Shown here piece by piece: positions 6,881 through 8,620 of a stretch of DNA of 64,000 nucleotides. The stretch spans positions 161,001 through 225,000 of the forward strand of contig CAUYUJ010014590.1 of NCBI GenBank assembly GCA_963575745.1. The letters run 5' to 3'. A program made the position numbers and the translations under genes. The stretch is from Prorocentrum cordatum (lineage: Eukaryota; Sar; Dinophyceae; Prorocentrales; Prorocentraceae). Numbering within the stretch: the stretch's first letter is position 1; each line of letters begins with the position of its first letter. Under the pieces are notes generated by a model, which did not search any database, was not told the DNA's origin, and saw only the letters and a list, made by a program, of their open reading frames with translations.

Positions 6881-7408
6881 GGGGAAGGAAATCCGGGCCC
6901 GGAAACCACGGCCTCGAACCCCCAATCTGGGTCCACCCCCCCCTGGGGCCTCCTCGGCCGCTCCCCGGCCGCTCAAGGCAGCCCTTGGGACGCTCCAAGA
7001 GCGCCCACGATGGCTTCCAGACTGCCCAAGAGGTTGCCAAGAGCACCCGAAAGCGCCACAGAGGGCCCCCAGGACTGGTCAAGATGACTTCCCAGTGCCC
7101 TAGATGGTTTCAAGACGGCCCAAGAGGCCCCGAAAACGCCCCAAAAGGCCCCAACGAGGACCCCCACGAAGCAAAAATCGGCACATTCCCTTCGGAAAAC
7201 GTGCATTTTTAGCATGTTCGTTTGTTTGATCTCGAGAGCGTCCAAGACGTCCCAAGAAGCCCCCTAGATCCTCCCAAGTCGGCCCCAGAGGCCCCAAGAG
7301 GGCCCCAAAACGGCCCAAGAGAACACCAAGACGGCCCAAGAGAGCCCCATGACGGCCCAAGAGCGGCCTCAAAGGGCCCAAAAGGCTCCCAAGAGAGCCC
7401 CAAGACGG
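6881..7408. repeat. R6 dispersed repeat, GGCCCCAAG orientation
   Basis: Short-period words such as CCAAGAGAGCCCCAAGACGG. A block at about 7140-7215 (TTCCCTTCGGAAAACGTGC) is the reverse complement of blocks at 63.5 and 63.9 kb. The retrocopy at 7409 is inserted into this array, which resumes at 8603. Confidence 0.7.
7391..7408. repeat. Target-site duplication, left
   Basis: AAGAGAGCCCCAAGACGG ends exactly at the first base of the spliced leader and is repeated without mismatch at 8603-8620, directly after the A-tract. The length is in the range made by LINE target-primed reverse transcription. Because R6 is repetitive, part of the match could be chance, but both copies abut the insert ends exactly. 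Confidence 0.85.
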
Positions 7409-7430
7409 TCCGTAGCCATTTTGGCTCAAG
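7409..7430 (+). other. Complete DinoSL spliced-leader relic
   Basis: All 22 nt match the conserved dinoflagellate spliced leader, with T at the variable first position; it ends ATTTTGGCTCAAG. It is followed by CCG instead of a GT donor, so it is a trans-spliced leader copied back into the genome from mRNA and not an SL RNA gene. Confidence 0.95.
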
Positions 7431-7445
7431 CCGTTTTTGCTCCAG
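7431..7445 (+). other. Second, decayed SL relic
   Basis: CCGTTTTTGCTCCAG matches the 15-nt 3' part of the spliced leader (CCATTTTGGCTCAAG) at 12 of 15 positions. A truncated older leader directly downstream of a full one is the known signature of genes that went through mRNA recycling more than once. Confidence 0.65.
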
Positions 7446-7514
7446 GCTAGGCCAAGCAAGGCATTGCACTAGCTGCTGCTCGTTCAAGCCAGTCGGTACC
7501 GCGGGGTCGACGCC

Positions 7515-8258
7515 ATGATCCTGGACCTCGGCTGCATGAAGCTGCCCTTCGAGGGCGACTTCAACACAATCATGATATTCACGGGGTTCGCGTCGGCATG
7601 CATCTCGACCACCTTGTTCTTTAACTTCGTCACCCCGAAGGGACCTGCACTGGGGGCAGGTACCCCCGAGCAAGTTGTTGATGCCTTCGGCAAGACGATG
7701 ATCGTGCAGGCCGTATGATGCATCATCTACTACAACTACGTGGGCGCTTAGGTTCTGGGCGTGTTCCTCTCAGGCCCTTGGGCCATGCTCGACGGGAAGA
7801 AGCAGACAGAGAAGTGGTGAGCGAACGCCTCGCGTTTCGCGGGCAACCAGTTTGAGCAAAGCTTTGTTTTCATCCCGTGTCTGTGGATGTACGCAGGGCT
7901 CGTTGATTACGAGACGGCTTGGACCCTTGGCGTGTTGTATATCATTGGCCGAATCCTGTATCCTCTCTTTTACGTTGTCCACGGGAGGTTCACTTTCTTC
8001 TTCGAGCACATCACCCAGGTTGGCTATGCAGTCAACGGCACGTTCATATTGGGCGCACTGATCAGGGGGGCGAAGTGGGACTACGTCGAGTTCTCAAAAG
8101 ATCACAACATTCTCACGCAGATCTTGGGTGCATGCCTCGGCGTCTTCACCCTTCTGCCGGGGGTCGGAATCACTATCCCTTGGTTCATCGCGCACACCGT
8201 GATGGACCGCAAGCGTGCCCAGGCATACTCGGCATCGGTCACTCCAGGCGACGCCTGA
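7515..8258 (+). pseudogene. MAPEG-like membrane protein, retrocopy with three in-frame stops
   Basis: MAPEG family members are four-helix membrane proteins such as microsomal glutathione S-transferases and leukotriene synthases. A single frame runs 247 codons from ATG 7515 to TGA 8256. The MAPEG-type core is visible: an ANASRFAGNQFEQS segment (the R..xN..E pattern), then a helix with LGVLYIIGRILYPLFYV (conserved GR..Y). Hydrophobic segments lie near codons 12-35, 70-88, 113-145 and 205-232. Stops interrupt at TGA 7716-7718, TAG 7749-7751 and TGA 7818-7820; each can arise from an Arg or Gln codon by one C-to-T change. No frameshift is present. It may be a dead retrocopy, or a copy of an already damaged or edited transcript. 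Family assignment comes from motif memory. Confidence 0.75.
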
Positions 8259-8592
8259 CCAGGGCAATCGTGTATTCATCCTTTTCATGATTTTCCGCCA
8301 GCCGCCACAGAAAAATGTCGGTCGGCCGAGCTTCCATATCATTAATGTGATATCCCTGCACGTGCTCAGGCTATCCAGTCCTCGATGTACTCGCCTGCAA
8401 AGCACGCGGATGTTGGGAGCAGCTCCAAGGGTTTTCCGTAGCAGCCACTGCACCTCGGCGCGGCCCGGGACGCTCTGCAAAGCGTTATTTTTGTTGCTTC
8501 GACGCCCTGCCAGGTCGGCGAGTATTCCGTGGCCGCGGGGCCGAGGCCAGAACAGGCAGTAACGAAACAGGCACTGCAGCGCAGCGACGAGC
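8259..8592 (+). other. 3'UTR of the retrocopy
   Basis: Lies between the stop codon and the A12 tail and has no further coding signal. No AATAAA is visible, as expected for dinoflagellate transcripts. Confidence 0.7.
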
Positions 8593-8602
8593 AAAAAAAA
8601 AA

Positions 8603-8620
8603 AAGAGAGCCCCAAGACGG
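8603..8620. repeat. Target-site duplication, right
   Basis: Perfect copy of 7391-7408. The R6 array resumes downstream (CCCCAGCCTCCCAAG), so joining the two flanks gives continuous R6 sequence. Confidence 0.85.

Follow-up and report, generated by a model that had tools for sequence, protein, structure and literature searches.

Genes copied back into the genome from trans-spliced mRNAs are established in dinoflagellates, as are the leader relicts that they carry (PMC6050394, PMC3229502, PMC12014239, PMC7245778), and for two Symbiodinium genomes the share of such retrogenes among the genes is put at 22 to 23% (PMC6050394). These "recycled cDNAs" (Slamovits and Keeling 2008; Jaeckisch 2011; Song 2017/2018) begin in genomic DNA with the dinoflagellate spliced leader (DinoSL; consensus, DCCGUAGCCAUUUUGGCUCAAG [PMC6050394]), followed by the relict of an older leader cut after its nucleotide 7 (PMC3229502). 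They are defined by the 5' end; in the available passages of PMC6050394, a target-site duplication is not described and the enzyme is called unknown, and the available part of PMC12014239 names long terminal repeat (LTR) and non-LTR elements, undecided. Activity of long interspersed nuclear elements (LINEs) has been suggested for the entry of RNA-virus genes with nearby leaders (PMC10235124), in Symbiodiniaceae and Polarella the LINEs are reported to be highly divergent and likely remnants (PMC8045281), and a dinoflagellate genome paper that contains the phrase "target site duplication" uses it, in the passages available, for miniature inverted-repeat transposable elements (MITEs) in a discussion of introners (PMC7789003). 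A literature search on dinoflagellates and target-primed reverse transcription returned no paper on dinoflagellate retrogenes, judged by title. Here we analyzed 64,000 nucleotides of the genome of Prorocentrum cordatum (4.15 Gb, 59.7% G+C; PMC10666404), namely, positions 161,001 to 225,000 of contig CAUYUJ010014590.1 (referred to here as the window; 58.4% G+C). Positions 7409 to 8602 of the window are the DNA copy of a MAPEG-family mRNA that had been trans-spliced and polyadenylated; the copy is now a pseudogene. We estimate a probability of roughly 0.85 that this copy was inserted by target-primed reverse transcription by the enzyme of a LINE, with an RNA that would likewise begin with the leader and end in an A-tail.

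The insert and its target consist of the following features.

6989 to 7390 (no strand): left half of the target, a CCAAGA-type degenerate repeat array ("R6"; repeat families D5, D9, D10, and D12); edges approximate
7391 to 7408 (+): left target-site duplication, AAGAGAGCCCCAAGACGG; exact match
7409 to 7430 (+): full 22-nt dinoflagellate spliced leader, TCCGTAGCCATTTTGGCTCAAG, with its first nucleotide; matches the consensus and is missing at the parent locus
7431 to 7445 (+): older leader relict, CCGTTTTTGCTCCAG (12/15), cut where a leader serving as splice acceptor is cut
7446 to 7514 (+): remaining 5' untranslated region (UTR), by comparison with the parent
7515 to 8258 (+): MAPEG-family coding copy, a pseudogene (PF01124; E value, 4.2e-10); normal stop TGA at 8256
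8259 to 8592 (+): 3' UTR, by comparison with the parent; uninterrupted near 8290, the place of a 1.08-kb interruption in the parent
8593 to 8604 (+): A12 tail, its final two A's common to the duplication; the parent has CAAACAGATAG here
8603 to 8620 (+): right target-site duplication, AAGAGAGCCCCAAGACGG; exact match
8621 to 8700 (no strand): right half of the target array; edge approximate

The initial annotation of this DNA had reported the complete leader, the A12 tail, and a perfect 18-bp duplication. All three were found, the duplication being 16 to 18 bp long because the tail (A10 to A12) and the repeat have two A's in common. The coding body, which had been described as uninterrupted, is broken by three in-frame stops (TGA at 7716, TAG at 7749, and TGA at 7818), on which we dropped the reading as an intact gene; a known RNA family was dropped on 0 Rfam matches in the window at the gathering score. 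The relict at 7431 to 7445 had been overlooked. The genomic 5' leader and a relict truncated after nucleotide 7 (12 of 15 positions) are the marks of recycled DinoSL retrogenes, and the target duplication adjoins both the 5' end and the tail, as in LINE retrocopies, with the caveat of neighboring array units. The joined flanks continue as the same kind of array, as the annotation had stated, and no empty allele was seen.

Target duplications of LINE retrocopies measure about 7 to 20 bp. The processed pseudogenes made by mammalian L1 share with the insert the A-tail, a like duplication length, and a decaying frame, with an L1-like reverse transcriptase (RT) LINE in the genome; they differ in that their 5' end carries no trans-spliced leader and in that their target is TT|AAAA, not a CCAAGA-type array. 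The copy in the window is now decaying.

Searching the organism's own genome (4,128,499,153 bases; 21,875 contigs), in which the best 40 of 165 candidates were scored, gave among the matches listed 40 places, namely, the locus itself, a copy on contig C18833, four pieces on contig C20452 (two tandem loci), and 34 short matches. The first C20452 locus (G000:C20452) encodes a protein identical over 247 of 247 residues to P0001, a protein labeled MMETSP transcriptome. The parent gene, which the initial annotation had proposed to look for, thus lies on another contig. Its flanks differ from those of the copy, and the parent locus with matching flanks that the annotation had named as refuting did not turn up. 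The parent has CGATTCACAATTTGCTGCAG at the place of the copy's leader and CAAACAGATAG at that of the A's, and so the leader and the tail, the two ends of a mature mRNA, were added to RNA. The parent 3' UTR contains an interruption of about 1.08 kb that is missing from both copies and whose ends are not classical splice sites; it is possibly a later insertion into the parent, the alternative being a spliced intron. This interruption (about positions 1673 to 2752 of retrieved sequence L013) holds a CCAAGA-type array on the minus strand between inverted ends (CCGCCGGCCC ... GGGCCGGCG) and looks introner- or MITE-like.

Between the window copy and the parent, 6 coding changes are synonymous and 8 nonsynonymous, 3 of the latter being stops; 7 of the 8 nonsynonymous changes are G/C to A/T. 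The apparent excess of stops (3/8) had a P value of 0.005 under equal mutation and 0.03 under G/C-to-A/T bias, and it was not used. The 15 nt CCGTTTTTGCTCCAG also follow the inferred acceptor of the parent; counted together with the six preceding nucleotides, 16 of 21 positions agree with those of an entire old leader. This degraded second leader makes it probable that the parent was itself the product of an earlier retrocopying. A search for the parent in IMG/VR gave 4 pattern matches, none confirmed, and a solved-structure search with P0001 gave no matches.

The C18833 copy (L012) is 93% identical over positions 19 to 1211 of the query, that is, from the start of the leader to the tail. Besides the relict, it has a leader carrying a single change and an A-rich tail, and its frame is likewise broken. 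When differences were polarized with L012, 21 fell to the window copy alone, 20 to the parent alone (leader columns counted), and 54 to L012 alone. At a site outside any such array, L012 is bounded by a degenerate duplication of about 16 bp (GAGGTCCGTCAGTGCT / GAGGTTCGTCAGGGGTGCT; 3-nt gap), and 0 of the 26 control junctions of its locus scored as high.

We then took the 34 short genome matches, all of which were retrieved, together with the window and L012 as 36 leader loci; fewer are independent, given shared flanks (L020/L042, L046/L047, L024/L026/L027/L028, and L033/L036, with L035 similar). A finder required a stretch rich in A's and, after it, a repeat of the bases that precede the leader. 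Controls were pseudo-junctions in the same locus, set in 15-nt steps up to 400 nt upstream (26 per locus; 936 in total). They replaced a first, cross-locus null that was hardly informative, the array being present at other loci too (2/252 reached 18). A score of at least 15 was reached by 10 of the 36 leader loci versus 4 of the 936 controls, all four of them in the window (2) and L046 (2), and a score of at least 12 by 13 loci versus 22 controls. A relict of at least 12/15 follows the leader in 27 of the 36 loci.

A closer table covered 17 loci, 16 picked from the finder table plus L023. Duplications were exact in 7 of them (18 bp in the window, L017, L032, and L034; 17 bp in L015; 20 bp in L025; 19 bp in L046), had one mismatch in 9 (13 to 18 bp), and had three mismatches in L012. 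Among leader inserts other than the window copy, A-tails occur with duplications of mostly 16 to 20 bp. The duplication starts at CC|AAG in 10 of the 17 loci versus 133 of 6,715 positions (2%) in the same flanks; by our own arithmetic the background is about 6% if any start within the A's or the G counts, and the excess persists. The binomial P value of 1.6e-13 for CC|AAG ignores forced starts, query bias, and the look-alike pair L020/L042. The left ends were selected by the query and have no evidential value. By eye, the longest open reading frames (ORFs) of 16 inserts differ, except for the pairs window/L012 and L020/L042, and hence the inserts are not one multicopy family. GG stands directly before the leader in 29 of the 36 loci; this is partly query selected and would also fit extra cap-added C's pairing with target G's.

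Among the leader-bearing loci are two LINEs that have endonuclease and RT matches and the same insertion anatomy as the window copy. L049 consists of the leader, a 15/15 relict, a first ORF with only subthreshold Pfam matches, a 1,086-amino-acid ORF (RVT_1 [PF00078], 62.5 bits; Exo_endo_phos, 21.6 bits, below the cutoff of 24.5), and an A9 tail, with a 15-bp exact duplication, AATGCCCCAAAACGG, on both sides. L023, joined with L052, has the leader, a 15/15 relict, ORF1, and an open 1,352-codon stop-to-stop ORF2 with Exo_endo_phos (PF03372; 30.7 bits, cutoff 24.5) and RVT_1 (PF00078; 51.9 bits, cutoff 29.6); it ends in a pure A58 tail and is flanked by a 15-bp exact duplication, ATCGCCTCACGACGG. 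With one mismatch allowed, both duplications extend to 18 bp, and both start at C|AA in CCAAGA-type arrays. The best solved-structure match of the L052 RT was LINE-1 ORF2p (E value, 7.2e-13); the endonuclease half of L023 gave no matches in that search. The open ORFs and the pure A58 suggest that L023+L052, a candidate young LINE, may be active at present. In joined coordinates its ORF1 spans 790 to 1908 and its ORF2 1832 to 5887, a 77-nt overlap in a different frame; the first ATG of ORF2 (2699) lies inside the endonuclease region, and frameshifting or reinitiation may be involved. A further locus, L030, is a broken relative.

The two LINEs resemble APE-type (L1-like) LINEs in their two ORFs, endonuclease and RT, A-tail, and duplication, and differ from them in that the first 37 nt are the host leader plus relict, identical in both although the elements hardly match elsewhere in DNA. 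Their proteins are 41% alike over 971 residues, whereas in DNA the full match is limited to those 37 nt, with otherwise one 50-nt stretch at 80%. Hence the 5' end of these LINEs looks renewed rather than inherited with the element. Trypanosomatid non-LTR retroposons with Pr77 are also LINEs with a common 5' sequence in a spliced-leader organism; according to the accessible part of PMC8190864, the element-borne promoter there gives unspliced transcripts, whereas here the leader itself is the common 5' end. In Hydra, transposon RNAs use host trans-splicing (30.9% and 29.7% of transposon Iso-Seq reads in two strains), but in the passages available the leader is found in RNA reads (PMC12220107), and here it is found in genomic LINE copies. 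Literature joining spliced leaders with non-LTR retrotransposons or RT, covered by titles, abstract openings, and passages, yielded no genomic LINE starting with a leader, the Hydra transcripts coming nearest, which suggests that leader-headed genomic LINEs are new as far as this literature goes.

The initial annotation had already proposed target-primed reverse transcription by a LINE, and this proposal is strengthened by the parent, the second copy, the inserts of like structure, and the two LINEs. In the mechanism that we propose, a LINE endonuclease would nick the bottom strand at about 5'-TCTT|GG in a CCAAGA-type array, the mRNA A-tail would pair with the exposed T's, and copying would run to the first leader nucleotide; a second nick about 18 nt away would yield the duplication. 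The LINE RNA would take its leader by trans-splicing in each round. Beyond the event itself, we lean, with moderate confidence, toward a wider reading, namely, that these LINEs lack a 5' end of their own and take it each cycle from the host leader, by trans-splicing at the AG of the inherited leader, and that LINE RNA and host mRNA are near-equal templates, both put into CCAAGA-type arrays with an 18-bp stagger. Because the two RNAs would have the same 5' end and both be polyadenylated, the enzyme would have little to distinguish them.

The LINE pol fragments that had been noted within the window are present, but the suggestion that they point to the source did not hold. Both stretches are broken. 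The first (54889 to 57264, +) aligns with P0019 (zinc-knuckle, weak RNase H) in three pieces that are shifted in frame, at 81, 77, and 65%; the second (about 52150 to 53151, +) does so at only 24%. Their Pfam matches lie below the cutoff, and P0022, a Prorocentrum cordatum LINE relative, is only 36% identical to a window fragment. They were dropped as the source because they belong to another group than the A-tailed LINEs and the related full element inspected, L041, shows no A-tail. The leader-headed LINEs L041 and L035 are of the same group as these fragments, with endonuclease and RT matches near the cutoffs. Joined with L054, L041 has a 2,473-codon stop-to-stop frame and CGCT repeats near its 3' side.

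Several results weigh against LINE-mediated insertion or limit what the census can contribute to it. First, 23 of the 36 loci scored below 12, several being covered for only about 2.5 kb downstream. In the window, L046, L022, and L044, one control (1/26 each) equals the true junction when mismatches are allowed; array units explain these controls in the window, L022, and L044. For L012, 35 of 252 cross-locus comparisons reach its score, in a null that includes array-against-array matches. In addition, 34 of the 36 loci come from a query with the 18-mer beside the leader and from the 40 scored candidates only, a design that in itself favors targets in arrays and the GACGG|leader phase. The A's of the tail cannot be told from those of the target, and C|AA starts are therefore partly forced. 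As for the enzyme, the window junction, CCC|AAGAGAG at 7388 to 7397, departs from the TT|AAAA consensus at which human L1 makes its first nick. The best solved-structure match of L049 is a "Reverse transcriptase-like protein" (E value, 7.3e-17), with LINE-1 ORF2p next (1.8e-12). L041 and L035 have no run of at least six A's beyond 1 kb from the leader; L041 sits in a CTC microsatellite, and for L035 the 20-base left flank recurs twice within a tandem repeat that lies past the 3' part; no duplication is therefore readable in either. L049 and L023+L052 are candidates for the catalysis of the window event. Finally, in the mismatch-tolerant finder a neighboring unit of the left flank scores 18, as does the true junction; the left flank shares 16-bp words with a distal array of like kind in 21 of 805,230 position pairs (longest, 19), and that array shares them with the right flank in 1 of 730,678.

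Of the other routes, the one that survives best, though we think it unlikely, is that free cDNA was caught by end joining at a staggered double-strand break, with fill-in making the duplication and no LINE endonuclease taking part. Any filled-in staggered break yields a duplication. This route is opposed by the like length and start of the duplications at many loci, by the CC|AAG excess, and by the recurrence of the same features in the LINEs, an argument weakened by the query bias and the shared A's.

We regard it as quite improbable that an LTR-retrotransposon enzyme copied the mRNA and an integrase or template switching inserted it. LTR integrases make duplications of 4 to 6 bp; neither such a duplication nor LTR or chimeric flanks were found. 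Instead, the 16- to 18-bp duplication stands directly against the tail, the repeat families shown for 6000 to 10500 are the array and simple repeats, with no long flanking repeats, and two LINEs of the same genome have the same anatomy. LTR mediation was dropped on the duplication length and the missing flanking LTR-like repeats. In its favor, Song et al. 2018, in the portion available, treat the element type as unknown and an LTR element (Ty1/copia) as more likely (PMC6050394).

Very improbable is the possibility that the two 18-mers are neighboring units of the repeat array and that there is no target duplication. The array has a period of about 21 bp, a 1-mismatch neighbor of the 18-mer lies at 7338 (the unit that equals the true junction in the tolerant finder), and words of 16 to 19 bp are common to the distal array. 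Against this, no third exact copy of AAGAGAGCCCCAAGACGG was found on either strand of the window, which was the only place looked at for the recurrence without insertion that the initial annotation had regarded as refuting. Among pairs of left- and right-flank positions, 6 of 139,262 reach 16 bp, the count expected from one 18-bp match and its trims. In simulated insertions without duplication, with losses of 0 to 30 bases, a 16-bp look-alike arose in 0 of 21,638 combinations of site and deletion when the array was that of the joined empty site and in 3 of 61,380 when it was the distal array. The related copy L012 has its duplication outside such an array. On the exact-match nulls (6/139,262 and 0/21,638), a chance match inside the array was dropped, the shared distal-array words and the 7338 neighbor being the counter-results. 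In the window itself, then, the case rests on the exact match, not on the tolerant score.

Hardly tenable is the reading that this gene is expressed and that RNA editing of its transcript restores the conserved protein, the stops not being decay. In its favor, all 8 residue differences are one base from the conserved residue, and the available part of PMC10666404 mentions that dinoflagellates edit mRNAs encoded in the nucleus. Against it, the very protein of the transcriptome is encoded at a different place in the genome, 7 of the 8 changes are G/C to A/T, and there are 6 synonymous coding changes in addition.

Leaders were also seen elsewhere. In the window, a leader-like GCGTAGCTATTTTGGTTCAAG (18/21) at 22108 to 22088 (-) heads an ORF that runs from 22021 downward and whose only relative found was P0024 (85%); no A-tail or duplication was found there, and from its sequence the ORF is perhaps an older retrogene. 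Downstream in this second retrogene (about 21325 to 21373, -), a perfect 19-base inverted repeat, GTGGTCACAGAGTGGTCAC ... GTGACCACTCTGTGACCAC, resembles a small hairpin insertion. Exact leader scans gave 1 stretch in IMG/VR and 2 in GTDB contigs, the best duplication beside an A-run being 6 bp. The IMG/VR stretch, an AT-rich contig (L001; about 1785 to 2766 and 2893 to 2913, -), has two exact 21-nt DinoSL copies. One of them heads a block that is richer in G+C and whose start looks coding, as though a viral genome had taken up a leader-bearing host cDNA. The GTDB leaders (L002, 32 to 52, +; L003, 4334 to 4354, -) are exact and lie on contigs filed as Dehalococcoidia metagenome-assembled genomes, probably eukaryotic contamination.

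Junctions of the window type recur at other loci, and they point toward a LINE where an LTR-type enzyme had been guessed. In the same genome, a candidate young LINE whose ORFs are open and whose A-tail is 58 nt long makes the question of the enzyme testable at the bench. Leader-headed LINEs would explain how a LINE has a complete 5' end in a trans-splicing organism. If true, the reading in which these LINEs renew their 5' end from the host leader would also explain genomes full of full-length recycled mRNAs and the tandem pile-up of leaders.

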